This document shows positions 12,186 to 27,105 of a stretch of 43,324 bases of DNA, piece by piece. Every line of letters begins with the position of its first letter. Position 1 is the stretch's first letter. The stretch is from Nitrospirota bacterium (GTDB lineage Bacteria > Nitrospirota > Thermodesulfovibrionia > Thermodesulfovibrionales > UBA6898): positions 1-43,324 of the forward strand of contig JAKAIE010000018.1 of assembly GCA_021814475.1 (NCBI GenBank), written 5' to 3'. The notes under the pieces are model-generated. The model made no database searches. It was not told the origin of the DNA and saw only the letters and a list, made by a program, of their open reading frames with translations. The position numbers were made by a program, and so were the translations under genes.

Positions 12186-13205
12186 GTGGTGCCGCAGCGA
12201 AAAATACTGGTCACCGGGGCAGCCGGGTTTATAGGATTTCATCTCTCGAAGAGACTGATCGCAATGGGCGACGCCGTCGTCGGCCTCGACAATCTCAATG
12301 ATTATTACGACGTCAACCTGAAGCTCGCACGGCTGAAACAGATGTCTTTCGAGCCGAGTTTCACTCCGGTGAGGATCGACCTGGCGGACAGGGAGGCAGT
12401 GGAGCGCCTCTTTGCCGGTGAGAAATTCGATATTGTCGTGAACCTTGCGGCGCAGGCAGGGGTCAGGTATTCCCTTGTCAACCCGCACGCCTATGCCGAA
12501 AGCAATCTCGCCGGGTTTCTGAACGTCCTCGAAGGGTGTCGCCGGCACGGTGTGAAGCATCTCGTCTTTGCATCATCGAGTTCGGTCTACGGCGCCAACA
12601 CGACCGTGCCGTTTTCGGTCCATCATAATGTGGACCACCCGGTCTCGCTCTATGCCGCGACAAAAAAGGCGAATGAGCTCATGGCCCATTCCTACTCAAG
12701 CCTGTACAACATCCCCTGCACGGGGCTGAGGTTCTTCACGGTCTATGGTCCCTGGGGCCGGCCCGACATGGCCTATTTTCTTTTTACGAAGGCTATTATC
12801 GAAGGCAGGCCTATCGATGTCTTCAACTTCGGCAGGATGCAGAGGGATTTTACCTATATCGACGACATCGTCGAAGGGGTGGTGAGGGTGATGTGGCGCA
12901 TTCCCTCCCCCGACCCCGGCTGGTCCGGAGCTTCGCCTGATGCGGCGACGAGTTATGCGCCGTACCGCATCTACAATATCGGCAACAACCAGCCGGTGGA
13001 ACTGCTGCATTTCATCGGGGTCCTCGAGGACTGCCTCGGGAAAAAGGCGGAAAAAAGGATGCTGCCGATCCAGGCCGGCGACGTGCCGGTAACGTACGCA
13101 GATATAGACGATCTTGTCCGGGACACCGGTTTTACGCCGTCGACCACGATCGGGGACGGTCTCCGCAGATTCGTGGAATGGTATAATGAATACTATAAAA
13201 ATTAA
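12186..13205 (+). CDS. UDP-glucuronate 4-epimerase-like NAD-dependent epimerase
   Basis: This is a 339-residue short-chain dehydrogenase-type sugar-nucleotide epimerase. The N-terminal Rossmann motif is [10 protein letters not shown], followed by [18 protein letters not shown], which is typical of the CapI/LpsL group converting UDP-glucuronate to UDP-galacturonate. The catalytic set is present: SSSSVYG and YAATKKANE (YxxxK, near residue 160). [10 protein letters not shown] follows. It would supply galacturonate for lipopolysaccharide or capsule. Two GTG codons (12186 and 12189) can start it; AGGAAGGGGG precedes both. It ends 12 nt before galE and the two are likely co-transcribed. Other UDP-sugar substrates cannot be excluded. 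Confidence 0.85.
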
Positions 13206-13214
13206 GGAGACTGA

Positions 13215-14624
<1,410 letters not shown>

Positions 14625-14768: not shown

Positions 14769-16766
14769 ATGACCAGCGTATTCTCCAGTGCATTTCTCAG
14801 GATCCGGACCTGTCTTGCGATGACCCTCCTGGCGGCATGCTGCCTGACCGGTGTTGTCACTGCGGGAACAGCCTTTGCCGCCTCTTCGTCCGGAGACGGC
14901 AATGAAGCGGGGATCACCACAAAGGACGAACTCCTCCTCTTCTGGGACGAAAAAGACCTCTATGTCCAGTCTGCCACGAGAAACGGGAAACCGATCTCCC
15001 AGGCTGCCGAGAATATCACCGTCGTCACCTCGAAGGAGATAGAGGATATGAACGCCCACAATGTAGGCGAGGTCCTGAACAGGATCACCGGTCTCTTTGT
15101 CGATTCGAGCGGCCTTGACCTGGGGAGCAGCTCCCTCCTCCATATCCAGGGTTCCGAAGAGAGGCATGTGCTCGTGCTTGTCGACGGTATCACCTGGAAC
15201 ACGCTCACAGGCGGAAACGCCGAGACTATGACGATCCCAGTCAGGATCATCGACCGCATCGAGGTGATAAAGGGGCCCGCGTCCTCCTCGTGGGGTTCCG
15301 CCCTTGGTGGTGTGATCAATATCATCACAAAGAAAGCAGGGGACACCAGGGTCCCGACCGGCACCATGTCCGTCTCGTACGGGGAGAGGAACACGTCTGA
15401 CCTTTCCGCAGGCATATCCGGCAGGGCCGGCGCTGCAGGATATTATATCTATGCAGGGAGACAGGAATCGGACGGCCTGAGGGACGGCAGGGACTTCAGG
15501 AGCAACAGCTTCTTTTCGAAGTTCAATGTGCCTGTCTCGAAGGATGTCAGCCTCGGCTTCAGCCTCGGCTACAGCGAGCCGCAGTCGACCCTGGCGGTCC
15601 TCCCGAGTTTTGACCTCCTGAACCACGCGATTATCCGGGCGTTGTATGCGACCGCGTCTCTCGATGCGGCGGTTGCTCAGGACCTGAAGCTGAACCTGCA
15701 GCTCCAGACACTCAAACAGAAGTTCGATCTGAATAATTCAGTCCTCGGGCTGGGGATGATCGGCAATGCCGGTGACCTCTTCCAGGACGCCGTCTATGAC
15801 GAAAAGACGATCGGCGCTGCCGGCAAGCTCGTCTGGACAAAGGGCCCACATACAGCCGTCCTCGGAGTCGACTTCAGCCACGGCAGCCTCGACCAGGTCC
15901 TCACCTCGGGGGCGCTCCTCCAGTCCTTCGGTGTCCCCGAGGTCCTGAGCACCAATCCCGATATCGACAAGTGGGCTGTTTATGCGAATGATACGATAAC
16001 AGTCGGGAGCTTCTCCCTCACCCCGGGCATACGGTTCGACCATAACAATATCACCGGCTCTTTCACGAGTCCTAGCATAGGGGCGACGTACAAACTTGCC
16101 GAGAGGACGATCCTCAGGGCCTCTGTTGCAAGGGGCTTCACCATCCCCCCCCTTTCACTGACATCAGGTGGCGCAATATTCCTCGATCCGAACCCCTCAC
16201 TTAAACCTGAAAAGGTATGGTCGTACCAGGCCGGCGTTGAATCGGGTGTCACGGAGTATCTCTGGGTCAAGGCGACCGTCTTCAGGCATGACCTGAGCAA
16301 TAACCTGGTGAGATCGCCCCTGGCAGGCGGGCCGCCCCTGTTTAACGATTTAGAGGTGAACCAGGGAGACATCAAGAGGCAGGGCGCCGAGCTCGAGGCG
16401 GACACAGTGCCTTTCCATAACTTCTCCCTGAGGGCCGGCTTCGCCTATGTGAAGATAGCGCCCTCTCTGAAGGACAGCCTCGTGAATTATGCATACAATA
16501 TCGGGATCAGGTACGACGACAAAAAATCCCTTGAGGCCCAGCTCTTCGGACACTATGTCTGGTGGAACGCCGACGGGGCAATGAACGGGAAGTACGATGC
16601 CTTTATCTGGGACCTGAACGTCAGGAAGAAGATATACTCGACCGAGATGACCGATACAGAGCTCTTCCTGACCGCCCACAACCTCTTCAACGGTTCCCAG
16701 TATGCGAGCGGAGACATGAAGAACCCCAGGAGATGGGTCGAGGCCGGCCTTAGATTCAAGTTTTAA
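14769..16766 (+). CDS. TonB-dependent outer-membrane receptor
   Basis: The product is 665 residues with a signal peptide (about 1-38, ending GTAFA). A conserved ELLLFWDEKDLYVQSATRNG stretch precedes the plug domain (about 75-185), whose signature parts are ITVVTSKEIEDMNAHNVGEV, LVLVDGITWN, RIIDRIEVIKGPASSSWGS and GGVINIITKKAG. The remaining ~450 residues form the beta-barrel, ending in the aromatic-terminal strand RWVEAGLRFKF needed for BAM recognition. Such receptors import metal chelates or cobalamin with TonB energy; the ligand is not predictable here. Translation start at 14769 is supported by the signal peptide although the ribosome-binding site is weak. It lies just upstream of the peptide cassette but has its own terminator. 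Confidence 0.9.
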   Translation: MTSVFSSAFLRIRTCLAMTLLAACCLTGVVTAGTAFAASSSGDGNEAGITTKDELLLFWDEKDLYVQSATRNGKPISQAAENITVVTSKEIEDMNAHNVGEVLNRITGLFVDSSGLDLGSSSLLHIQGSEERHVLVLVDGITWNTLTGGNAETMTIPVRIIDRIEVIKGPASSSWGSALGGVINIITKKAGDTRVPTGTMSVSYGERNTSDLSAGISGRAGAAGYYIYAGRQESDGLRDGRDFRSNSFFSKFNVPVSKDVSLGFSLGYSEPQSTLAVLPSFDLLNHAIIRALYATASLDAAVAQDLKLNLQLQTLKQKFDLNNSVLGLGMIGNAGDLFQDAVYDEKTIGAAGKLVWTKGPHTAVLGVDFSHGSLDQVLTSGALLQSFGVPEVLSTNPDIDKWAVYANDTITVGSFSLTPGIRFDHNNITGSFTSPSIGATYKLAERTILRASVARGFTIPPLSLTSGGAIFLDPNPSLKPEKVWSYQAGVESGVTEYLWVKATVFRHDLSNNLVRSPLAGGPPLFNDLEVNQGDIKRQGAELEADTVPFHNFSLRAGFAYVKIAPSLKDSLVNYAYNIGIRYDDKKSLEAQLFGHYVWWNADGAMNGKYDAFIWDLNVRKKIYSTEMTDTELFLTAHNLFNGSQYASGDMKNPRRWVEAGLRFKF

Positions 16767-16877
16767 GGATACTTTCCCTTAGTCGCTGCACCTCATTGCT
16801 GTTTTTTCCCTTTCTTTCCTTTTGAACTCTTTCCCGTACTGACAATGATCTTCCCTGTTGCCTGAATTGCGCCTCTA

Positions 16878-16907
16878 CCTGGCCTAAGGTTGCCAGGAAT
16901 ATTTTTA
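16878..16907 (+). terminator. Probable intrinsic terminator after the TonB receptor
   Basis: CCTGGC (16878-16883) pairs with GCCAGG (16892-16897) around an 8-nt loop, followed by AATATTTTTAATT. It lies 112 nt after the receptor stop and just before the promoter of the peptide cassette, separating the two transcripts. Confidence 0.6.
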
Positions 16908-16929
16908 ATTAAATTTATTTAATATTTAG

Positions 16930-16958
16930 TTGACAACAGGTAAAATATGTCATATATT
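16930..16958 (+). promoter_or_regulatory. Strong sigma-70 promoter of the peptide cassette
   Basis: TTGACA (16930-16935) and TATATT (16953-16958) are separated by exactly 17 bp in AT-rich DNA, about 64 nt before the precursor start codon. This near-consensus match suggests high or housekeeping-type expression of the short peptide gene. Confidence 0.8.
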
Positions 16959-17021
16959 TATGCACTTTTCAAACCGCCCTTGGCGCTTAACGATCAGAGA
17001 TAGAAATAATCAGGAGGTAAT

Positions 17022-17123
17022 ATGGAAAAGTCGATTGTGATCCTTGACTGCGGCATTGACATGGAAGAGATCGCGGGTCCGCTCGGATGCTGCCTGTCTG
17101 CTGTTGTTGCCACACGGGCCTAA
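17022..17123 (+). CDS. 33-residue RiPP precursor peptide with Gly-Cys-Cys core
   Basis: This short frame, ATG at 17022 to TAA at 17121-17123, has AGGAGG 4 nt upstream and a near-consensus promoter. Its peptide can be read as a leader MEKSIVILDCGIDMEEIAG followed by PLGCCLSAVVATRA. Cysteines are at positions 10, 23 and 24. An acidic leader, a small Gly/Ala/Cys C-terminal part and an adjacent radical SAM/SPASM enzyme are the hallmarks of a ribosomally made, post-translationally modified peptide. The adjacent enzyme resembles, as I recall, the group annotated as putative geopeptide maturases, whose substrates are similarly tiny peptides. The modification (thioether, other crosslink or epimerisation) and the cleavage site cannot be read from sequence. 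It is too short for most gene callers. Confidence 0.8.
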   Translation: MEKSIVILDCGIDMEEIAGPLGCCLSAVVATRA

Positions 17124-17131
17124 CAGATATG

Positions 17132-17171
17132 AGAAGGGGGTAATGCCTGACTTGAGGCATTACCCCCTTCT
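17132..17171 (+). terminator. Long hairpin between precursor and maturase genes
   Basis: AGAAGGGGGTAATGCCT (17132-17148) pairs over 17 bp without mismatch with AGGCATTACCCCCTTCT (17155-17171) around a 6-nt loop. It is followed by only ATTTTG, a weak T-run. It starts 8 nt after the precursor stop and ends 19 nt before the maturase start. Partial termination or protection of the 5' mRNA would give much more precursor than enzyme, a common arrangement in peptide cassettes. Confidence 0.8.
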
Positions 17172-17190
17172 ATTTTGAAGCCACCCACTC

Positions 17191-18495
17191 ATGCTTTCTC
17201 CCTATCTCAGTATATTTCCCTCTGAAGAGAGGCCCGGCTCCAGGCTCGTCTTCTCCTCGAAAAAGACTTCTGTTGCGGTTCTGACCGATGAAGTTCTTCA
17301 ATTGATAGAATCCGGCACCCTCTCTCCCGAAGACCTTGCGACCCTCACGAAGCTCGGTGTAGCCGTCCCCGACAGGGAGGAAGAAAGACATTCGATGCTC
17401 ACCTATGTCGACGGGCTGAATGCGAGGAACCGCAACCTGAATATCTCGGTGATCATAAACCTGGACTGCAACTTCAGGTGCGTCTACTGCTACGAGGAGG
17501 GGCTGAAGGGGCAGATCTACATGTCCGACGAGACTGTAGGGCAGCTCCTCTCTTTCATAAAGGCCAGGTTCACCCCGGACAAGAATGACCTGAATATCGA
17601 TTTCTACGGCGGAGAGCCGCTGATGTCAAAGGCTGCTATCAGATATATATCCGAGGATCTGAAGTCCTTTACGTCTGAACGGAATGCGGAATACGGGTTC
17701 ACCCTTGTCACTAACGGCTCGCTCTTTACCCGGAAGGCGGCGCAAGAGCTGTCAGAGGTGGGGCTGAAGGCGATAAAGGTGACCCTGGACGGACCCGCCG
17801 AGGTCCATGACAGATACAGGCCTTTCAAGACCGGAACGGGGAGCTTCGAGGCGATCATGAGGAACCTGAAGCAGACCTGCGATATCGTCAAGATAGGCAT
17901 CGGCGGGAATTTCGAAAGAGGGAACTATGAGAAGTTCATTCCACTCCTCGATATCCTCGAAAAAGAAGGCCTCACCCCCGACAGGGTAAGCCAGGTGAAA
18001 TTCAGCCCGGTGATGAGCCGGCCGGCCGGCGATATATCCCCTGCAGACTATACTGACGGCTGCATGTCGATCAACGAGCCGTGGCTTTTCAAGGCAGATC
18101 TCCTGCTGAGGGAAGAGGTGTTGAAGAGAGGATATCAGGTGCCGAGGCATATGCCGATGCCCTGCCATGTCGAGATCGACGACGCCTTTGTCGTGAACGT
18201 CGACGGGGAGATCTACAAATGCCCTACCTTCATCGGAAGGAAGGGCTACGGGATCGGCAATGTGAAGGAGGGCATACGGGATTACCGGGATGTCTACAGG
18301 CTCGACATCTGGAAGAACGAAAAGTGTCTCGACTGCGAATACCTGCCGATCTGCTTCGGCGGCTGCCGTTACATGGCCTTCCTGAGGGACGGCAACCTCG
18401 AAACCATAGACTGCAAGAAACCCTATCTCGACGCAGCTCTCGAGACCCTGATCAGGCAGGACATCAAATACAGGAAGCCCTCCGGGGCGGCATAG
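17191..18495 (+). CDS. Radical SAM/SPASM peptide maturase
   Basis: The 434-residue enzyme should modify the peptide encoded at 17022. The first ~80 residues (SPYLSIFPSEERPGSRLVFS, LGVAVPDREEER) resemble the small winged-helix recognition part (RRE/PqqD-like) common in such enzymes. The radical SAM core starts near 90 with CNFRCVYCYEEG (CxxxCxxC binding the SAM [4Fe-4S] cluster). FYGGEPLM, LVTNGSLF and KVTLDGPAEVHDRYRP follow. The SPASM region has C-x2-C-x5-C-x3-C in CLDCEYLPICFGGC, preceded by GEIYKCPTF and followed by IDCKKPY, enough Cys for two auxiliary clusters. From memory it is closest to the putative geopeptide maturase group. The start has no strong ribosome-binding site, in keeping with lower expression than the precursor. 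The MFS gene follows after 33 nt. Confidence 0.9.
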   Translation: MLSPYLSIFPSEERPGSRLVFSSKKTSVAVLTDEVLQLIESGTLSPEDLATLTKLGVAVPDREEERHSMLTYVDGLNARNRNLNISVIINLDCNFRCVYCYEEGLKGQIYMSDETVGQLLSFIKARFTPDKNDLNIDFYGGEPLMSKAAIRYISEDLKSFTSERNAEYGFTLVTNGSLFTRKAAQELSEVGLKAIKVTLDGPAEVHDRYRPFKTGTGSFEAIMRNLKQTCDIVKIGIGGNFERGNYEKFIPLLDILEKEGLTPDRVSQVKFSPVMSRPAGDISPADYTDGCMSINEPWLFKADLLLREEVLKRGYQVPRHMPMPCHVEIDDAFVVNVDGEIYKCPTFIGRKGYGIGNVKEGIRDYRDVYRLDIWKNEKCLDCEYLPICFGGCRYMAFLRDGNLETIDCKKPYLDAALETLIRQDIKYRKPSGAA

Positions 18496-18528
18496 CTTGG
18501 CGTCTTCCTGCCGAGGGGACATCTGTTC

Positions 18529-19089
18529 ATGAGGAAGATGAGCAACCTCCTAGCCTTCACGATGGTCAACTCCATTTGGGGGGTGGTCTACGGGATGATC
18601 GGTCCCTTCTATGCGATCTACGTGGCGAAGATCAGCGGGGGGCTGGAGAAGGTCGGATTCTCTTTCAGCATCATGATCCTGGTGCAGGCCGCCTCATCCT
18701 ACTATGTAGGCCGCTATTCGGACAGGCTCGGGAGGAGACCCTTCCTCTTTGCCGCCGCCTATATGGACGCCGTCATCCTCTTCTGCTATACCATGGCGGA
18801 CCAGGCCTACCAGATATATATACTTCAGGGGCTGCTCGGCATCACGAACGCGGTGAATATGACGATCAGGGGGTCCCTCCTTGCCGACATTACGCAGGCG
18901 GACAGCAGGGGCCTGGAGATCGGCAGGTTCAACGCCCTGGTGAGCATATTCACCGCAGGCGGATTTACCCTCGGCGGTTTTATGGCGAAAGATTTCGGGC
19001 TGCAATCCATCTTCTACTTCGGTGCCGTCACCATCGCCTGTTCGACCGTCCTGCTTTTCTTTGTCCATGAGCCTGGGGGGGCGGATTGA
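18529..19089 (+). CDS. Half-size MFS transporter (six transmembrane helices)
   Basis: The 186-residue product corresponds to only the N-terminal half of a major facilitator protein. Six hydrophobic helices can be counted (about residues 8-30, 42-63, 70-90, 97-118, 135-155 and 160-180). The family motif A lies between helices 2 and 3 as GRYSDRLGRRP. It ends with VHEPGGAD and TGA. The next ~100 bases hold a promoter and no continuation in any frame, so a simple frameshift or fresh nonsense mutation does not explain the missing half. In the cassette it would be the natural exporter of the modified peptide, possibly working as a dimer. A degenerate remnant is the alternative. It is probably translated from the maturase transcript. 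Confidence 0.72.
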   Translation: MRKMSNLLAFTMVNSIWGVVYGMIGPFYAIYVAKISGGLEKVGFSFSIMILVQAASSYYVGRYSDRLGRRPFLFAAAYMDAVILFCYTMADQAYQIYILQGLLGITNAVNMTIRGSLLADITQADSRGLEIGRFNALVSIFTAGGFTLGGFMAKDFGLQSIFYFGAVTIACSTVLLFFVHEPGGAD

Positions 19090-19114
19090 GGTTTTTCCCT
19101 GTTGTCTATATAAT
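19086..19114 (+). promoter_or_regulatory. Predicted promoter for binding protein and kinase genes
   Basis: TTGAGG (19086-19091) and TATAAT (19109-19114) are 17 bp apart, the first overlapping the stop of the MFS gene. It suggests that the next two genes form a separate transcript from the peptide cassette. Confidence 0.6.
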
Positions 19115-19185
19115 CTATGAATCTTATTGCAAAATCTTGATTGACATGGGGGTGGAGGGTTGAATCCGTTTGCCGGAGGGGAAGG

Positions 19186-20067
19186 GTGAGAAAGGTCAGC
19201 AGTGTGCGCCTGCTCCTTGCCGCTTTCGTTCTCTTTCTCCTGGGTGCATCGCCATCCGAACCTGCGGATGTTATCGTTGTCGGAGATATGCGGCTGGCCC
19301 CTGTCGATCATATTGTGTCAGGCATCAGGGAGGCCCTGGACGTGAAGTTGAAGGTGTTCGCGCCGTTGGACGTGAAAGACAGGCTGAGCAGTATCGCCTC
19401 GAGGGAGGATGCGAAGGTGGTCGTTGCCCTCGGGAGGGATGCGCTTGAGGAGGCCCTCCGGCTTCCACAGTCGGTTGCGGTCGTATACGACCTCGTCGTG
19501 AGCCCGCCGGCGGTGAAAAGGCTGAATATGACGGGGCATTATATGGCGACCCCGGTCAGGGAGTATGTCTCGATCATACGCAGGTACCTGCCTCTGATAA
19601 GGCACATTGCGGTCGTCGGGAGTTCTGAGTTGATGAGGACCCTGGAGACCTCCGGTGATCCGATGGTGTCGCCTCACAGGGTGAAGAACGCCTTTGAACT
19701 GGTCGAAACCGTGAAGCAGCTCGATTCCGCTGATGCCATATTGCTGCTTCCGGATGTCTCGTTCCTGACCGCCTCTGCCCTGGAGGAGGTGTACCTGTAT
19801 TCCTTCCGGAGGGGTATTCCCGTGCTCGGCATCTCTGAAAAGAACGTGCGGCAGGGAGCCCTCTTTGCCCTCGTCTTCGATCCCGTATACGTCGGAGCGA
19901 ACCTGGAAAACGAGGTTTCTCTGGCGATCCACGGAGAGGACATCGGTAGGATACCCCCTTCGCCTTCACAGAAATTCGAACTCTACATCAATCTGAATAC
20001 CGCTGAAAAGATGAATATTGCCATGCCCGGAGAGCTTGTCAGGAAGGCGAAAAAGGTCTTCCATTGA
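19186..20067 (+). CDS. Periplasmic ABC-type substrate-binding protein
   Basis: The 293-residue product starts with a signal peptide (VRKVSSVRLLLAAFVLFLLG, cleaved around residue 23-26) and then a two-lobed periplasmic binding fold of the ABC_sub_bind (DUF534) kind. It has a KVVVALGRDALEEALR strand-helix, VAVVYDLVVSP, HIAVVGSSEL, AILLLPDVSFLTASALEEVY and the hinge-side IPVLGISEKNVRQGAL. The GTG at 19186 is chosen because CGGAGGGGA lies just before it; a TTG at 19141 in frame would put charged residues ahead of the signal. No permease or ATPase gene is present, and the next gene is a sensor kinase. It may therefore act as a sensory binding protein that presents a ligand to the kinase, not as part of a transporter. 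Confidence 0.78.
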   Translation: MRKVSSVRLLLAAFVLFLLGASPSEPADVIVVGDMRLAPVDHIVSGIREALDVKLKVFAPLDVKDRLSSIASREDAKVVVALGRDALEEALRLPQSVAVVYDLVVSPPAVKRLNMTGHYMATPVREYVSIIRRYLPLIRHIAVVGSSELMRTLETSGDPMVSPHRVKNAFELVETVKQLDSADAILLLPDVSFLTASALEEVYLYSFRRGIPVLGISEKNVRQGALFALVFDPVYVGANLENEVSLAIHGEDIGRIPPSPSQKFELYINLNTAEKMNIAMPGELVRKAKKVFH

Positions 20068-20103
20068 GATTTATGATACCGGGAAGACAGAAGGACAGGA
20101 TGC

Positions 20104-22338
20104 GTGTACCGGGCGAAGGGCATGCCGGGGAGTAATGGCGTGAGGATAACGTTCAGGAAGAAGGCACTTCTGATTATCCTGCCGATGCTCTGCGTGGCGT
20201 CGATGGTCTATACCTATGATGCGATAAGGACCGAGAAGGAGATCGTGCGCAGTGAAATCATCAAGAGGGCCGAGGCGATCACCAGCCTGGCGACGAGGAC
20301 CGGGGAACTGCCGATCCTCTCGGGCAGCGGGGAATTTCTCAAAAACGCGGTCGCGCCCCTGAGCGAAAATCCGGAGGTGGTTTCTGTCGCCTTCTTCGAT
20401 GCCGGCATGCACGAACTCATCCGTGAAGGAAGGCCGATTCCCGGTCCGCTTCCTCTCCTGTCGGCCGGCAACCCCATCTCGATGACCGATGCAAAGGATA
20501 TGTTCATCTTCTATGCGCCGATATTTGCGGTACGACAGAGTGATGCCATCGGCATCTTTCATGAGGGGTCGGGGGCAAGCCCGGTCAGGGAGCATATAGG
20601 CTGGGTGCAGTTAGGCTTCTCCAAGGGCATTATGAACGACGCGGTAGGCAAGGTCGTCTCGAGAGGCATTTTGCTTGCAGTCGTATTCACCGGCGGCATC
20701 AGCCTCGCGGTCTTTTTTCTGATCACCGTGACGACGAGACCCCTCATGGTTCTTTTTCAGGCGGTGAAGAAACTGGAAAAGGGAGAATACCCCGAAATAA
20801 AGCATATCTCTTCCACGGATGAAATAGGGGAGCTTGCGGTGGCCTTCGACAGGATGAGTACGGCGATCAAGGAGAGGGAGTCCGAGCTCGTCGCGTCCGA
20901 AAACAGGCTGAGAGAACTCTTCGAGCGCGTTGAACACGCGATCTTCAGGCTCGACGCGGGCGGCGCCATCATAGATGCGAACTCGAGGTTCCGCGACCTC
21001 TTCGGTGAAGCAGGGTCGTTTAGCGATGTGGTGGGCGGTGAGAAGGAGGTCCTGAACTGCTTTCAGGCGGCCTCCTCAGGCGGTGCGGCGCATCTGGAGA
21101 AGAGGACAAACGGGAAGGACGGGGAGCTCGTCATATCGCTCTCTCTCTACCCTGTCATCGGGCAGGGCGGAGAAATCGTGGGATATGACGGATATATCAT
21201 GGATATAACAGAGAAGAAGACGATGGAAGAAGGGCTGCTCCGTTCCCAGAAACTGGAAGCGGTCGGCACCCTTGCCGGCGGAATGGCGCATGATTTCAAT
21301 AATGTCCTGACCGCGATCCTGGGCTATTCCGAGCTGATGCTCGAAGAGATAAAAGAGGGGGAGCATTTTTACAGGGCGGTATCGACTATCAACAGTGCGG
21401 CGAAGCGGGGGGCTGACCTGTCCATGAAGATACTCAGTGTCACCCGGAAAGAGAAACTGTTGATAAGGCCCATCGACATGAATGAGATCGTGAAGAACTC
21501 AATCGAATTACTTCACAGAAGCATTCCAAAGGATATCCAGATTGTCACGGCGCTCGGTCCGGATATCCCCATGGCGATGGCGGACCCCTCCCAGATGCAG
21601 CAGGTGGTCCTGAACCTGGCGATCAACGCCCGGGACGCGATGAGCGGGGGTGGAAGGTTGACCATAGGCACGGAACTGGCGCAGGATTATGTGAGGCTGT
21701 CTGTTTCGGACACAGGCACCGGCATGTCGGGAGCCACGCGCAGCAGGATATTCGATCCCTTTTTTACGACAAAGGAGGCCGGCAAAGGCACCGGTCTCGG
21801 TCTCTATATAGTGCATTCGATCGTCGCCAACCACGGGGGGCATATCAACCTGTACAGCGAGCAGGGGAGCGGCACGGTGTTTAATGTGTACGTGCCCGTT
21901 GCAAGGGGTGAAGCCCCTGAAGAGGCTGCCGAGCCCGGGGAACTCGGAGGCCAGGAAACGATCCTCATGATAGATGACGAGACCACGGTGAGAGAAATGA
22001 CCAGGGACATGCTGTCCCGGCTCGGCTACGAGGTGCTGCTGGCCGGGGGAGGGACGGAGGGACTCCGCATATTCAGGGAAAAGAAGGCGGATATATCCCT
22101 GATCATCCTCGATATGGTGATGCCGGAAATGGGAGGAAAGGACGTCTTTCGGCTCCTGAAGGAGATAAACCCCGCGGTCAAGGTGCTGATCTGTTCCGGG
22201 TTCAGCCAGGAAGGGTTTGAGGGCATAGAAAATCTTTTGGCGCAGGGTGCCGACGGATTCATACAGAAACCCTTCAGCTGCCACGATATCGCATCGGCGA
22301 TGAGAAAGGCCCTGTCCGGAAAACGTCCGGTGCCCTGA
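20104..22338 (+). CDS. Hybrid sensor histidine kinase (HAMP-PAS-HisKA-HATPase-receiver)
   Basis: This is a 744-residue membrane kinase. A transmembrane helix near 20-38 (LLIILPMLCVASMVYTYDA) and another near 190-212 enclose a periplasmic sensor of about 150 residues. A HAMP region with TRPLMVLFQAVKKLEKGEYP follows. A PAS domain (about 255-370) comes next, then HisKA with the phospho-acceptor H-box GGMAHDFNNVL. The HATPase has the N-box NLAINARDAM, DTGTGM and GKGTGLGLYIV. A C-terminal receiver carries the phospho-Asp in LIILDMVMPEMGG. No output regulator is next to it, so the signal probably leaves through a phosphotransfer partner elsewhere. Starts at 20104 and 20140 (both GTG) are possible; each has a purine-rich ribosome-binding site. 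It is likely coupled to the binding protein 36 nt upstream. Confidence 0.88.
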   Translation: MYRAKGMPGSNGVRITFRKKALLIILPMLCVASMVYTYDAIRTEKEIVRSEIIKRAEAITSLATRTGELPILSGSGEFLKNAVAPLSENPEVVSVAFFDAGMHELIREGRPIPGPLPLLSAGNPISMTDAKDMFIFYAPIFAVRQSDAIGIFHEGSGASPVREHIGWVQLGFSKGIMNDAVGKVVSRGILLAVVFTGGISLAVFFLITVTTRPLMVLFQAVKKLEKGEYPEIKHISSTDEIGELAVAFDRMSTAIKERESELVASENRLRELFERVEHAIFRLDAGGAIIDANSRFRDLFGEAGSFSDVVGGEKEVLNCFQAASSGGAAHLEKRTNGKDGELVISLSLYPVIGQGGEIVGYDGYIMDITEKKTMEEGLLRSQKLEAVGTLAGGMAHDFNNVLTAILGYSELMLEEIKEGEHFYRAVSTINSAAKRGADLSMKILSVTRKEKLLIRPIDMNEIVKNSIELLHRSIPKDIQIVTALGPDIPMAMADPSQMQQVVLNLAINARDAMSGGGRLTIGTELAQDYVRLSVSDTGTGMSGATRSRIFDPFFTTKEAGKGTGLGLYIVHSIVANHGGHINLYSEQGSGTVFNVYVPVARGEAPEEAAEPGELGGQETILMIDDETTVREMTRDMLSRLGYEVLLAGGGTEGLRIFREKKADISLIILDMVMPEMGGKDVFRLLKEINPAVKVLICSGFSQEGFEGIENLLAQGADGFIQKPFSCHDIASAMRKALSGKRPVP

Positions 22339-22458: not shown

Positions 22459-23331
22459 ATGAAGAGAGAAAGTTCCAAGGTTTTGTACCAGGTCTGTCTC
22501 ATCGTTTTCGCCCTTGTCCTCGGCGGCGCAGTGGCATTTGCAGCTCCCCAGGATGCGAAGTCGGCTCAGCCGGCCCTTGGCAGCGACGACTGTGTCAAGT
22601 GCCACGCCGGACCGCCTGCAGACATCGCCGCCAACGGAGGCAAGCACAAGAAGGTGGCATGCCAGGACTGCCATGTCGGCCATCCGCCCTCGGTCCCTGC
22701 CAAGAGCATCATTCCGAAGTGCAGCAAATGTCATGTCGGCAAGCCCCATTTCGAACTCCAGGGATGTCTGGGGTGTCACACGAATCCGCATACCCCGAAG
22801 AAAATCACGATCGGTCCGAATCTCACCGATCCCTGTCTGACCTGCCATACAAAGCAGATCGAGCAGCTCAGGGAGAATAAAACAAAACATTCCAGGCTCT
22901 TCTGTTCGACCTGCCACAGCAACACTCATCCGAACAAGCCCGAGTGCTTCAAGTGCCATAAGGGCCACACGCCTGATATGGTGATGGCGGACTGCAGGAG
23001 CTGTCATAAGGCCCATGCGCCGAAGCCGGTGACCTATGAAGATGTGCCGGCAAAGTTCTGCGCAGGCTGCCACAAGCAGGTCTACGATACGCTGATCGCA
23101 AGCAAGAGCAAGCACAGTCAGTTTGCCTGCTCGTTCTGCCATCAGTCAAAGCACAAGATGATTCCCAAGTGCCAGGACTGCCACGGGGAGAAGCATCCCG
23201 CCGGCATCATGGCGAAGTTCAACAAGTGCGGCGACTGCCATTATATCGCCCACGATCTGAACAACTGGTCACACCTGAAGAAGAGCGAGGAGAAGGAGCC
23301 CTCTGCTCGCAAGGGCGGAAAGAAGAAGTAA
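22459..23331 (+). CDS. Periplasmic multihaem (12-haem) c-type cytochrome
   Basis: The 290-residue protein has a signal peptide (about 1-29, ending GAVAFA). Twelve CxxCH motifs follow: CVKCH, CQDCH, CSKCH, CLGCH, CLTCH, CSTCH, CFKCH, CRSCH, CAGCH, CSFCH, CQDCH and CGDCH. That is one haem per about 21 residues, with many additional His for distal ligation. The later part pairs motifs with KSKHSQFAC and KTKHSRLFC, a partial internal repeat. The C-terminus is Lys-rich (ARKGGKKK). Such proteins carry electrons between the inner membrane quinone pool and periplasmic or extracellular acceptors. AAGGAGG lies 6 nt before the ATG, and a strong terminator follows, so it is monocistronic. Cytochromes of this density are typical of dissimilatory anaerobes. 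Confidence 0.93.
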   Translation: MKRESSKVLYQVCLIVFALVLGGAVAFAAPQDAKSAQPALGSDDCVKCHAGPPADIAANGGKHKKVACQDCHVGHPPSVPAKSIIPKCSKCHVGKPHFELQGCLGCHTNPHTPKKITIGPNLTDPCLTCHTKQIEQLRENKTKHSRLFCSTCHSNTHPNKPECFKCHKGHTPDMVMADCRSCHKAHAPKPVTYEDVPAKFCAGCHKQVYDTLIASKSKHSQFACSFCHQSKHKMIPKCQDCHGEKHPAGIMAKFNKCGDCHYIAHDLNNWSHLKKSEEKEPSARKGGKKK

Positions 23332-23609: not shown

Positions 23610-23639
23610 GTGGTAAATTGTGGTAGAAAGTGGAGGAGA
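23610..23639 (+). promoter_or_regulatory. MraZ operator: three 10-bp-spaced GTGG boxes
   Basis: GTGGTAAATT, GTGGTAGAAA and GTGGAGGAGA stand head to tail at 23610, 23620 and 23630. MraZ binds arrays of such short repeats with 10-bp spacing (TGGG-type in Escherichia coli, AAAGTGG-type in mycoplasmas) at its own promoter. Here the array covers the predicted transcription start, and the third box contains the ribosome-binding site of mraZ, so binding should repress the cluster. Confidence 0.85.
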
Positions 23640-23640
23640 C

Positions 23641-24093
23641 GTGCCAGCTTTCTCTGGAAAATATTATTATACACTCGACCCAAAGGGGCGACTTATCATA
23701 CCGGCTCCTTTCAGAGAGATAATTTCATCTAATTATAATCATAAACTCTACCTTGTCAACGCGGCGTTTGATACCTGCCTGCATCTGTATCCCCAGGAGG
23801 AGTGGCAGAAGCTCGAAGATAAGGTCCGTCAGTTGCCGGCCAGTGACGATGCGGTCAAGTACTTCAAGCGCCGGGTCGTTGCCTCGGCGCAGGAAGTCGA
23901 ACTCGACAAGCAGGGCAGGATTCTTGTCCCTGCATCTCTCCGCGAGGACGCCCGCCTGAATTCCGATATCGCCATCGTCGGCCAGATAGACCGCATAGAC
24001 CTGTGGGACAGGAAAGAGTGGGACCTGGTGACCGATCCTTCGAAGGTCGACAAGAGGGCGGTAGAAGCAAAATTGACGGAATTCGGGCTGTAG
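23641..24093 (+). CDS. mraZ: Transcriptional regulator MraZ
   Basis: MraZ is a ring-forming SpoVT/AbrB-fold DNA-binding protein that autoregulates the dcw cluster. The 150-residue product has the two tandem domains: FSGKYYYTLDPKGRLIIPAPFRE (residues 4-26, cited in parts: TLDPKGRLIIPA) and VELDKQGRILVPASLRE in the second half. Each carries the conserved DxxGR. I place the start at GTG 23641 because it gives the usual short N-terminus. The alternative GTG at 23620 lies inside the operator, only a few bases past the predicted transcription start. GGAGGA lies 4 nt upstream and is part of operator box 3. Confidence 0.93.
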   Translation: MPAFSGKYYYTLDPKGRLIIPAPFREIISSNYNHKLYLVNAAFDTCLHLYPQEEWQKLEDKVRQLPASDDAVKYFKRRVVASAQEVELDKQGRILVPASLREDARLNSDIAIVGQIDRIDLWDRKEWDLVTDPSKVDKRAVEAKLTEFGL

Positions 24094-24097
24094 CAGT

Positions 24098-24973
24098 ATG
24101 ACGTTTGCCCATCTCCCGGTCCTCGTCAGGGAGGTGGTCGACCTGCTCTCACCCAGAGAGGGCGGGACCTATGTGGATGCGACGGTAGGACTTGGGGGGC
24201 ATTCTGAAGTGTTACTCGAAAAGATCGGCCGGGACGGCAGGATTGTCGGTATCGACAGGGACGAAGAGGCCCTGAGAAGGACCGCGGAGCGGCTTCATGA
24301 CGACCGCCTGATCCTGCGAAAGGGCAGCTTCTCCGGCATCGCCGGGCTGCTCCGTGCGGAAGGCATCGGGGAGGTCGACGGCATACTCCTGGACCTTGGT
24401 GTATCGATGATGCAGCTGAAGGACCTGACAAGGGGCTTCAGTTTCACCTCCGCCGGGAGGCTCGATATGAGAATGGACATGTCACAGCCGATCTCTGCCT
24501 GGGATATTGTCAATGCCTGGCAGGATCGCGACCTTGTCCGGATATTGCGGGAGTATGGCGAGGAGTACCGCGCTGCCAGGATCGTCAGGTGGATCACGGA
24601 GGCCCGGAAGAAGAAGACGATCGATACCTGCGCCGAACTGGCGGGTCTCATCGAGCGGGCTGTCGGACGGTCCGGCAGGACCCATCCCGCGACGCGGACA
24701 TTCCAGGCCCTCCGCATCCAGGTGAACCGTGAGATGGAAGAGCTTGCCGGCGCGCTGGACGCGTCACTCGGTCTGTTAGGGAAAGGCGGACGCCTCTGCG
24801 TCATTTCGTATCATTCGCTGGAGGACAGGATCGTGAAGAACTTTATCAGGGATAACGCAAAGAAAATGACGCTCCTGCCGCTTGTGAAGAAGCCGGTGAC
24901 GGCCGGCATGGAGGAGCTGAGGGCAAACCCCTCGGCCAGGAGCGCAAAACTGAGAGGAGCCGAAAAGTTATGA
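24098..24973 (+). CDS. rsmH: 16S rRNA (cytosine-1402-N4)-methyltransferase
   Basis: RsmH (MraW) methylates N4 of C1402 in 16S rRNA. The 291-residue product starts TFAHLPVLVREVVDLLSP and contains the SAM-binding motif VDATVGLGGHS, followed by IGIDRDEEAL-like VGIDRDEEALRR and GILLDLGVSMMQL. The late motif FQALRIQVNREMEEL and the C-terminal ISYHSLEDRIVKNF are family signatures. The position directly after mraZ (4-nt gap) and the 4-nt overlap with ftsL match the standard cluster. Confidence 0.96.
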   Translation: MTFAHLPVLVREVVDLLSPREGGTYVDATVGLGGHSEVLLEKIGRDGRIVGIDRDEEALRRTAERLHDDRLILRKGSFSGIAGLLRAEGIGEVDGILLDLGVSMMQLKDLTRGFSFTSAGRLDMRMDMSQPISAWDIVNAWQDRDLVRILREYGEEYRAARIVRWITEARKKKTIDTCAELAGLIERAVGRSGRTHPATRTFQALRIQVNREMEELAGALDASLGLLGKGGRLCVISYHSLEDRIVKNFIRDNAKKMTLLPLVKKPVTAGMEELRANPSARSAKLRGAEKL

Positions 24974-25341
24974 TGCGGACCAAGTCTGACAGCACATTCG
25001 TGTCCCTGTTGTACAAACCCCTCTGCGTCGTGCTGGTGCTCGCTGGTCTTTTTTCCCTCATATGGCTGAGGTCCAGCATCGTTTCGATGACGTACAGCAT
25101 GCGTGAACTGGAGGAGAAGTCGATGGCAGCCCGGAAGGACATGAAGACGCTCCTTGCCGAGCGTGCCCACCTCATGGCGGTCTCCCGCATAACAGCCTCC
25201 CTGGACACTCCGGCCTACGGCAGGGCGAAATCTCCCGAAGACGTCTATGTGACCCCGGACAGGACTAGGGTCGTGCTGGTAAGACATAATACGGCGGCAG
25301 AGCCGAGACAGGCATCTCTGAGACTGGGGGACACCCGCTGA
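24970..25341 (+). CDS. ftsL: Cell division protein FtsL
   Basis: FtsL is a small bitopic protein that forms a complex with FtsB and FtsQ and helps activate septal peptidoglycan synthesis by FtsWI. The 123-residue product has a short cytoplasmic N-terminus, one membrane helix (about 17-36, LCVVLVLAGLFSLIWL) and then a periplasmic coiled coil (MRELEEKSMAARKDMKTLL, about 45-75). Sequence conservation in this family is low, so the call rests on topology and on the position between rsmH and ftsI. It overlaps rsmH by 4 nt. Confidence 0.85.
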   Translation: MMRTKSDSTFVSLLYKPLCVVLVLAGLFSLIWLRSSIVSMTYSMRELEEKSMAARKDMKTLLAERAHLMAVSRITASLDTPAYGRAKSPEDVYVTPDRTRVVLVRHNTAAEPRQASLRLGDTR

Positions 25342-25344
25342 CCG

Positions 25345-27105
25345 ATGGCGCAGAAGCTTCAGCAGGGAGGCGGACTCAGCAGGAAACGTGTCGTAATTCT
25401 CAATACGACGATCATCTTCGGTTTTATTGCGATATTCCTGCGCCTAAGCGATCTCATGATCTTCAATCACAAGCTCCTCTCCGAAAAGGCGAGAATGCAG
25501 CAGGAAAAGTCGGAAGATATCCATGTGATGAGGGGCAATATCTATGACCGCCGCGGGAGGGCGCTGGCGGTGAATATGGAACTCGAATCCCTTTACTGTG
25601 ACTCCCGCGAGGTGGATATCGACGGAGAGAAGGTGAAGAGGCTCTCCAACGTGCTTGGCATGGAGCCACGCGCTATTCAGGCGAAGTTCAAGGAGGAGAA
25701 GCGCTTTTCCTGGATCGACAGGAAGCTTCCGGCCGAGACAGTGGCGAAGGTGCGCGAGCTTCTCGGCATGGAGCCCGGGGTGAGGGAGCCCGGCGTGAAG
25801 GGCTTCGGTTTCATGACCGAGTCGCAGAGGTTCTATCCGAAGAACGAGCTCGCCGCCCATATTGTCGGCAACGTCGGGCTGGACAACCAGCCGCTCGAAG
25901 GGATAGAACTGCGCTACGACAAGTACCTGAAGACCTCCGGGGGCAAGGTATCACTTGCACGCGATGCCAGCGGAAGGGTGCTCTCCTCGGGGGTGAACAT
26001 GGAATCCAGGGGAGACGATATCCAGCTGACGATCGACGAGGGTCTTCAATATATTACGGAGAGGGAGCTTGACAAGGCCATGGCGAAGTGGCGCTCTGTC
26101 GCCGCCACCGCCATTGTCATGGATCCGTTCACCGGAGAGATTCTCGCCATGGCGAACCGTCCGACGTATGACCTGAACAACCTGCACCGTGCTAACAGGG
26201 CCGATGTCAGAAACCGTTCGATTACTGATATCTATGAGCCCGGGTCCACCTTCAAGATCGTTATCGGGACCGCTGCGCTTGAAGAGAAGGTCTTCAGCCC
26301 GAATTCCACCTTCGACTGCAGCAGGGGTTCTATCGAGGTCGGCGGCAAGGTGGTCCACGACGCACACCGGCACGGTCTTCTTGCCTTCCACGAGGTGATC
26401 CAGAAGTCCTCGAACGTCGGCTCAATCATGATCGGCATGAAACTCGGGAAGGAAAATATATACAAGTATGCGAAGCTCTACGGCTTCGGAGACAAGACCG
26501 GAATCGACCTGCCCGGGGAGGTGTCCGGATGGATCAAAAAACCGGAGAGGTGGTCCGCGACGTCGATAGGCGCGATCCCGATAGGGCAGGAGGTGGCCGT
26601 GACGCCGCTTCAGGTGCTGCGGGCATATGCCACCGTTGCCAACGGCGGCTTCCTCGTCAAGCCCCATGTGGTTTCCGAGATCAGGACATCCGCGGGACTG
26701 CCCGTGTATTCGTTTGAAGATACGGAGAAAAAAAGGATCCTGTCCGCCAGGACGGCGGAGACCTTCAGGGATATCCTTAAGACCGTGGTCGAGGAGGGAG
26801 GCACGGCGACGGCTGCTGCGGTCGACGGCAACCAGGTGGCGGGCAAGACCGGTACTGCGCAGCTTGTTGACAGCAGGACGAAACGCTATTCAAAAGACCG
26901 CTACATAAGTTCTTTTGTGGGTTTCGTGCCGGCCGACAATCCAAAACTTGCGATGATCGTCGTGGTGTATGAGCCGAAGGGGTCGATTTACGGCGGTGTG
27001 GTCGCGGGCCCTGTTTTCAGGAGCATCGCGGACCAGGCGCTGTCCTATATGAACGTGCCCCGGGACGACGGCAAGGAAAAGACCCTGCTGCTGGTGGCCA
27101 GATGA
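25345..27105 (+). CDS. ftsI: Division-specific transpeptidase FtsI (PBP3)
   Basis: FtsI crosslinks septal peptidoglycan together with the glycosyltransferase FtsW. The 586-residue class B penicillin-binding protein has an N-terminal membrane anchor (about 18-38) and a pedestal domain containing RGNIYDRRGRALAVN. The transpeptidase motifs are intact: SxxK in YEPGSTFKIVIG (about residue 300), SxN in KSSNVGS, and KTG in AGKTGTAQL. No C-terminal PASTA domain is present. It starts 3 nt after ftsL and its stop overlaps the murE start by 4 nt. Confidence 0.95.
   Translation: MAQKLQQGGGLSRKRVVILNTTIIFGFIAIFLRLSDLMIFNHKLLSEKARMQQEKSEDIHVMRGNIYDRRGRALAVNMELESLYCDSREVDIDGEKVKRLSNVLGMEPRAIQAKFKEEKRFSWIDRKLPAETVAKVRELLGMEPGVREPGVKGFGFMTESQRFYPKNELAAHIVGNVGLDNQPLEGIELRYDKYLKTSGGKVSLARDASGRVLSSGVNMESRGDDIQLTIDEGLQYITERELDKAMAKWRSVAATAIVMDPFTGEILAMANRPTYDLNNLHRANRADVRNRSITDIYEPGSTFKIVIGTAALEEKVFSPNSTFDCSRGSIEVGGKVVHDAHRHGLLAFHEVIQKSSNVGSIMIGMKLGKENIYKYAKLYGFGDKTGIDLPGEVSGWIKKPERWSATSIGAIPIGQEVAVTPLQVLRAYATVANGGFLVKPHVVSEIRTSAGLPVYSFEDTEKKRILSARTAETFRDILKTVVEEGGTATAAAVDGNQVAGKTGTAQLVDSRTKRYSKDRYISSFVGFVPADNPKLAMIVVVYEPKGSIYGGVVAGPVFRSIADQALSYMNVPRDDGKEKTLLLVAR

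Follow-up and report, generated by a model that had tools for sequence, protein, structure and literature searches.

Our results indicate that a short open reading frame of a Nitrospirota bacterium, located upstream of a radical SAM/SPASM enzyme gene, is a real and previously unannotated gene for a Cys-Cys peptide, and that, across one phylum, the genes for this peptide and its maturase almost always neighbour those for a TonB-dependent receptor, a periplasmic binding protein and a sensor kinase. This gene arrangement is directly observed; that it represents RiPP genes joined to an uptake-and-sensing module, with a chemistry and a circuit that we infer, is a reading to which we give about an even chance. 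The window, i.e., the whole stretch of DNA analyzed, comprises 43,324 nucleotides (contig JAKAIE010000018.1), and its relevant features are the following:

14769-16766, forward strand: TonB-dependent outer-membrane receptor with plug and barrel (Pfam Plug and TonB_dep_Rec_b-barrel), directly upstream of the peptide gene.
16930-16958, forward strand: sigma-70-like promoter, TTGACA-17-TATATT, a consensus match only.
17012-17017, forward strand: Shine-Dalgarno AGGAGG, read from the sequence.
17022-17123, forward strand: geopeptide-like precursor of 33 residues with Cys23-Cys24, a conserved Cys-Cys frame under purifying selection.
17132-17171, forward strand: hairpin with a 17-bp stem between precursor and maturase genes, found by scan and likely a leaky terminator.
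17191-18495, forward strand: radical SAM/SPASM maturase, a TIGR04280 member by score and cluster cysteines, with a CteB-like fold.
18529-19089, forward strand: half-size MFS protein, probable exporter (N-terminal half of MFS_1, conserved at half size).
about 19186-20067, forward strand: periplasmic binding protein PF04392 with a TrpX-like fold (Pfam, AlphaFold2 model); the GTG start at 19186 is our choice within a frame listed from 19141.
about 20140-22338, forward strand: hybrid sensor histidine kinase with HAMP, PAS, HisKA, HATPase and receiver domains (Pfam); the GTG start at 20140 is our choice within a frame listed from 20104.

The surroundings of these genes include two neighbouring NAD-dependent sugar epimerase-like genes ahead of the receptor gene (12186-14201, called by eye), a small, cytochrome-like multihaem protein rich in CxxCH motifs right after the kinase gene (22459-23331), and the beginning of a cell-division cluster at 23620-27105 (mraZ, rsmH, ftsL-like and penicillin-binding protein genes, also called by eye).

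The precursor gene extends for 33 codons from the ATG at 17022, with its stop codon at 17121-17123, and its product (MEKSIVILDCGIDMEEIAGPLGCCLSAVVATRA) contains three cysteines in all. A test frame was defined as an open reading frame of 18-100 codons led by a Shine-Dalgarno sequence, containing Cys-Cys and ending at most 250 nt upstream; such a frame was found for 41 of the 48 maturases with usable upstream sequence, versus 10 of 395 other genes from the same loci that served as controls, one of these ten passes being a genuine precursor. After manual inspection, Cys-Cys precursors were recognized at 45 of 48 maturase loci, four of them being added by eye, namely L136 (weak Shine-Dalgarno), L144 (709 nt away), L152 (truncated maturase match) and L167 (frame partly composed of N). 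The three loci lacking a precursor (L122, L145 and L147) have no co-directional TonB gene upstream. These 48 loci, which include one fragment at a contig end (L156) and 47 members exceeding the TIGR04280 cut-off, are not fully independent, since the L112 and L113 precursors are identical. Across 42 aligned precursors, no positions are invariant except Met1 and the two cysteines, and the pooled pN/pS of the peptide gene (0.31, 15 pairs) indicates purifying selection. With TIGR04229, the geopeptide precursor model, the window precursor aligned over all 22 model positions and reached 17.5 bits, thus staying below the curated cut-off of 30; no match above this cut-off was found among 27 genomes of the family. 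The original prediction of an unannotated 33-residue precursor escaping existing detection is upheld by the frame counts, the pN/pS value and the low TIGR04229 score, and the failure it foresaw, i.e., a short frame not conserved beside maturase homologues, was examined and conservation was found. The EEIAGP-LGCC pattern it proposed is retained in the nearest relatives only (L132 and L156), whereas the pattern that holds in general is [IV]x[VI]LxxG...CC.

In the majority of precursors, the core is preceded by this [IV]x[VI]LxxG motif. Furthermore, a second leader type was recognized, long, histone H1-like and built of Lys/Ala/Thr-rich repeats, in precursors that reach up to 88 residues and end in the same Cys-Cys core; it occurs at L133, L135, L137, L138, L140, L141 and L146, at L110 and L115, and at L112 and L113, and a few of these Lys-rich precursors match histone-like models. 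Most of these loci form one group in the maturase tree, with L110/L115 and L112/L113 placed separately. The L110 precursor (MAKRIAVKKKAMKKK...) resembles a form halfway to that of the ordinary L117 type (MEKRIVILKKGMEKK...), suggesting that the Lys-rich leaders may have arisen through expansion of a normal leader by repeats. At one locus (L119, genome G005), two tandem similar Cys-Cys precursors end 240 and 77 nt ahead of a single maturase.

Regarding expression signals, the near-consensus promoter that had been called holds as a sequence match, with 11 of 12 consensus positions; promoter-like sites in the region number 5 versus 1.5 expected, and both hexamers are shared by one relative (L130) and absent from most others. 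A hairpin lies within a few tens of bases after the precursor stop at nearly every locus, differing in sequence and constant in placement; a leaky terminator would be placed in this way, and the hairpin likely acts as one, giving more precursor than enzyme. Given the NtrC-type regulators present at some loci, a sigma-54 promoter ahead of the precursor was sought, and this candidate was dropped because it concerned few loci, mostly without an NtrC-type regulator. A riboswitch near the receptor gene (e.g., cobalamin) was likewise dropped, as the window has no Rfam match and the sole match among eight relatives is a tRNA.

The maturase scored 560 bits with TIGR04280, the model of geopeptide radical SAM maturases (cut-off 400), by which the resemblance proposed in the original prediction becomes family membership. 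The full set of cluster cysteines was also recovered as described there: CX3CX2C (C93, C97 and C100), the GGEP motif and six SPASM cysteines (C325, C344, C379, C382, C388 and C392) are invariant in 45 homologues, and the seventh SPASM cysteine, C408, is conserved in at least 90% of them. Strong TIGR04280 matches numbered 24, in 18 of 41 relatives; within a phylum sample of 396 genomes, 53 have a match at E ≤1e-60, 40 being above the cut-off, and about 60 matching regions were retrieved for the comparison of loci. A search of genome contigs added a single close relative, from a Nitrospirae MAG (L033, 61% identity), the remaining matches being distant SPASM maturases that were left out, and in a plasmid search all relatives fell below 60% identity and mostly belonged to other maturase families. 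The AlphaFold2 model of the enzyme (mean pLDDT 93) predicts three strands followed by helices at residues 6-79, an RRE-like arrangement, and the best solved match, by sequence as well as by fold, is CteB, a ranthipeptide synthase whose leader is described as bound to the RRE and whose auxiliary cluster is described as having a free coordination site (PMC8326336). As CteB is the best match and the seven SPASM cysteines fit what is described for CteB, the most likely chemistry would be, by analogy, that the Cys-Cys pair forms thioethers; no acceptor residue for the crosslink is conserved enough to be named.

The commonest gene order is TonB receptor, peptide, hairpin, maturase, MFS (when present), PF04392 protein and kinase; at some loci, the PF04392 and kinase genes are instead found in divergent orientation upstream of the TonB gene. 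Partners were counted by tblastn at 29 loci with enough flank on both sides, in a comparison that covers one phylum: a TonB receptor accompanies the maturase at 28 of them, a PF04392 protein and kinase/regulator genes at 26 each, and the half-size MFS protein at 8. Moreover, peptide and maturase directly follow the receptor gene at 36 of the 39 loci with enough upstream sequence. The compact cassette originally delimited at 16930-19089 is therefore too small, since these near-universal partners lie outside it; from the RiPP system it was thought to define, precursor and maturase stand, and the exporter applies to only the 8 of 29 loci. The transporter-like half-size protein was correctly described: its match to MFS_1 spans positions 9-177 of the 347 in the model, which is the N-terminal half. 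Copies were noted in 8 relatives. A truncated pseudogene is ruled out, every copy being half-size; as the homologues also have about 186 residues, the half size is a conserved trait rather than the mark of a broken gene. In a survey of 198 genomes the protein was found in 3, always as an immediate neighbour of the maturase and nowhere else.

The window receptor is related to BtuB and to siderophore receptors. Across 15 genomes, receptors of the window type form a distinct group with at least 145 bits to the window receptor, all other TonB matches reaching at most 68; in a second, more distant genome set, weaker intermediate TonB matches were found. Tree distances of receptor and maturase correlate with r = 0.89 (44 loci), a value that is compatible with shared descent, and those of maturase and PF04392 protein with r = 0.55; once shared descent is accounted for, the covariation of the core tail with the receptor is weak and is not claimed (partial r = 0.11, 5% of permutations). 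The nearest solved folds to the AlphaFold2 model of the PF04392 protein (mean pLDDT 92) are 3lkv and the L-Trp-bound 3lft, and given this TrpX-type fold and the lack of a recurring ABC permease in the loci, the modelled protein looks sensory.

Modules lacking the maturase, as well as decayed copies, were also identified. At L222 (genome G026), TonB, PF04392 and kinase genes stand in order without peptide or maturase, possibly as a receiver-only module, and the genome of the window itself carries, at L189 (contig C60), a second module of PF04392 protein, kinase and NtrC-type regulator without TonB or maturase. The latter lies downstream of the ATP synthase beta subunit gene. Two further modules are decayed: at L190 (G036), the TonB gene is split in two frames and the maturase is gone, and at L225 (G038), a transposase pair interrupts the TonB gene. 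Since there are maturase-free PF04392-kinase modules, one of them accompanied by a related TonB receptor, the ligand of the sensing part may be a different one; the genes neighbouring the orphan TonB copies offered no hint of a ligand.

Seven divergent maturases, with about 255-305 bits to TIGR04280 (below its cut-off), constitute a sister branch. No Cys-Cys peptide is encoded upstream of these seven, and just downstream of the maturase lies a peptide of 23-25 residues with one cysteine (consensus MKIVKKGERKxKxxPxxCxxxIx; L154, L155, L157, L159, L160, L161 and L165), which matches no NCBIfam model. After the peptide follow genes for an SBP_bac_5 binding protein and a kinase, with TonB upstream at several loci. 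Two unrelated binding-protein families occupy the same slot, each beside a kinase, pointing to ligand sensing as the probable logic common to both branches.

The maturase-peptide pair being almost always accompanied by receptor, binding protein and kinase suggests release, recapture and sensing. According to the circuit that we propose, whose chances of being right or wrong we hold to be balanced, the Cys-Cys peptide would be exported, taken up again by a TonB receptor of its own, and sensed in the periplasm by the binding protein and the kinase. The RRE-like N-terminal domain of the maturase would bind the [IV]x[VI]LxxG leader, the enzyme would, like CteB, form thioether crosslinks between nearby residues and either one or both of the two adjacent cysteines, and an unlinked protease would trim the modified peptide, which would leave the cell, at the window locus through the half-size MFS protein; the TonB receptor would then bring it back to the periplasm, perhaps with cargo, where the PF04392 protein would bind it and signal to the kinase. 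Altogether, this would make for an extracellular peptide that is private to its producer and sensed by it, serving as a pheromone or as a carrier reporting its own return. The circuit is supported by a conserved and coding peptide followed by a hairpin, by a maturase above cut-off with intact cysteines and with CteB as its best solved match, by the partner counts (28/29 for TonB, 26/29 for binding protein and 26/29 for kinase) together with the receptor-maturase correlation of 0.89, by the distinct TonB group (≥145 versus ≤68 bits in 15 genomes) and the MFS protein exclusive to maturase loci, and by the sister branch, with its unrelated SBP_bac_5 protein in the same slot beside a kinase. Against it stand the PF04392-kinase modules that lack a maturase, the linkage of exporter or protease at only a minority of loci, the weaker agreement of the binding-protein tree (r = 0.55) and the weak core-receptor covariation (partial r = 0.11). 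A broader formulation, in which a Gram-negative self-sensing circuit exists in two branches, one with Cys-Cys peptide and PF04392 protein and another with the 23-25-residue single-Cys peptide and SBP_bac_5 protein, is put forward tentatively, as possible rather than probable.

The main rival to recapture and sensing is a metallophore, i.e., a secreted peptide binding metal via its modified cysteines, with TonB uptake serving mainly for the metal and the kinase sensing the loaded carrier. Precursor, TonB receptor and exporter together follow the operon logic of methanobactin (PMC3621798), the receptor has BtuB and siderophore receptors among its relatives, and soft metals could be bound by vicinal cysteines; however, the loci have no recurring metal transporter, metal regulator or ABC permease, the PF04392 protein is nearest to amino-acid-binding proteins, and we consider a metallophore rather doubtful. 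Alternatively, receptor, binding protein and kinase might form a separate nutrient uptake-and-sensing module, with the peptide as an intracellular cofactor or an unrelated add-on. The immediate succession of receptor gene, peptide and maturase at 36 of 39 loci argues against such independence, as do the strong agreement between receptor and maturase trees and a sister branch that swaps the binding-protein family and keeps the layout; this explanation is thus unlikely, even with the TonB-PF04392-kinase set without maturase (L222), the decayed copy (L190) and the PF04392-kinase pair alone in the window's own genome (L189) in its favor.

An antimicrobial peptide, for which the TonB receptor would provide entry into competitors or self-protection, is a quite improbable reading: it would fit variable cores with invariant cysteines and the half-size MFS exporter of some loci, but no immunity gene recurs, the receptor sits in the producer's own operon, and kinase and binding protein are left without explanation. 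As for a chance origin of the 33-codon frame, with the enzyme acting on another substrate, its shortness and its TIGR04229 score below cut-off could be invoked; this is already contradicted by the frame counts (41/48 versus 10/395 controls), the pN/pS of 0.31, the invariant Cys-Cys and the hairpin placement, and we grant it practically no credence.

With respect to known systems, the window resembles the geopeptide system (TIGR04280 plus TIGR04229) in a maturase above cut-off and an adjoining short Cys-Cys precursor with a full-length alignment to the model (17022-17123 beside 17191-18495, a trait present at 45 of 48 loci), and differs from it in a precursor below the curated cut-off and in the TonB receptor, PF04392 protein, kinase, Lys-rich leaders and half-size MFS protein, which appear in no description found. 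Ranthipeptides, or SCIFF, with CteB as the nearest solved enzyme, share a SPASM domain, a similar cysteine set and, judging from the structure predicted for the window enzyme, an N-terminal RRE-like domain; however, SCIFF precursors contain six cysteines in about 45 residues, whereas the window peptide has one Cys-Cys pair and three cysteines in total, and TIGR03974 gives 111 bits against a cut-off of 425, which places the window outside this family. To our knowledge, no TonB or sensing module accompanies SCIFF. The thioether crosslink is known for CteB, and for the window it is only predicted by analogy. Methanobactin operons also unite a short precursor, an exporter and a TonB receptor, but they employ MbnB/MbnC enzymes and no radical SAM enzyme, and carry MbnI/MbnR where the window has binding protein and kinase; neither MbnB nor MbnC was found among the six scanned proteins of 14769-22338, so the operon in the window is not a methanobactin operon. 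PQQ is a radical SAM/SPASM RiPP product imported by a TonB receptor, PqqU (PMC12124388), and thus such a product can be a TonB substrate; unlike PQQ, one fixed cofactor, the window family has variable cores and an attached sensing module. CefB (NF038107) and the TIGR04463 SPASM maturases are the next best NCBIfam models for the window enzyme and the sister branch, yet both enzymes score far below the curated cut-offs and the precursors differ. In the literature searched, 'geopeptide', TIGR04280 and TIGR04229 appear in no paper, and a radical SAM RiPP with TonB in such an arrangement is not described. By profile score, the enzyme belongs to a known family, TIGR04280; the association with TonB receptor, binding protein and kinase, as well as the single-Cys sister peptide, are new within that literature.

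A profile model is all that defines geopeptide maturases here, the literature searched giving them neither a product nor a function, and their link to TonB receptor, binding protein and kinase turns an 'unknown natural product' into a testable prediction on the receptor, the sensor and the quantities to be measured. Furthermore, the approximately 46 Cys-Cys and 7 single-Cys precursors, which lie below or outside current models, are directly usable in genome mining. If the proposed circuit is true, a radical SAM peptide would act as an extracellular signal or as a reporting carrier in mostly uncultured diderm bacteria.
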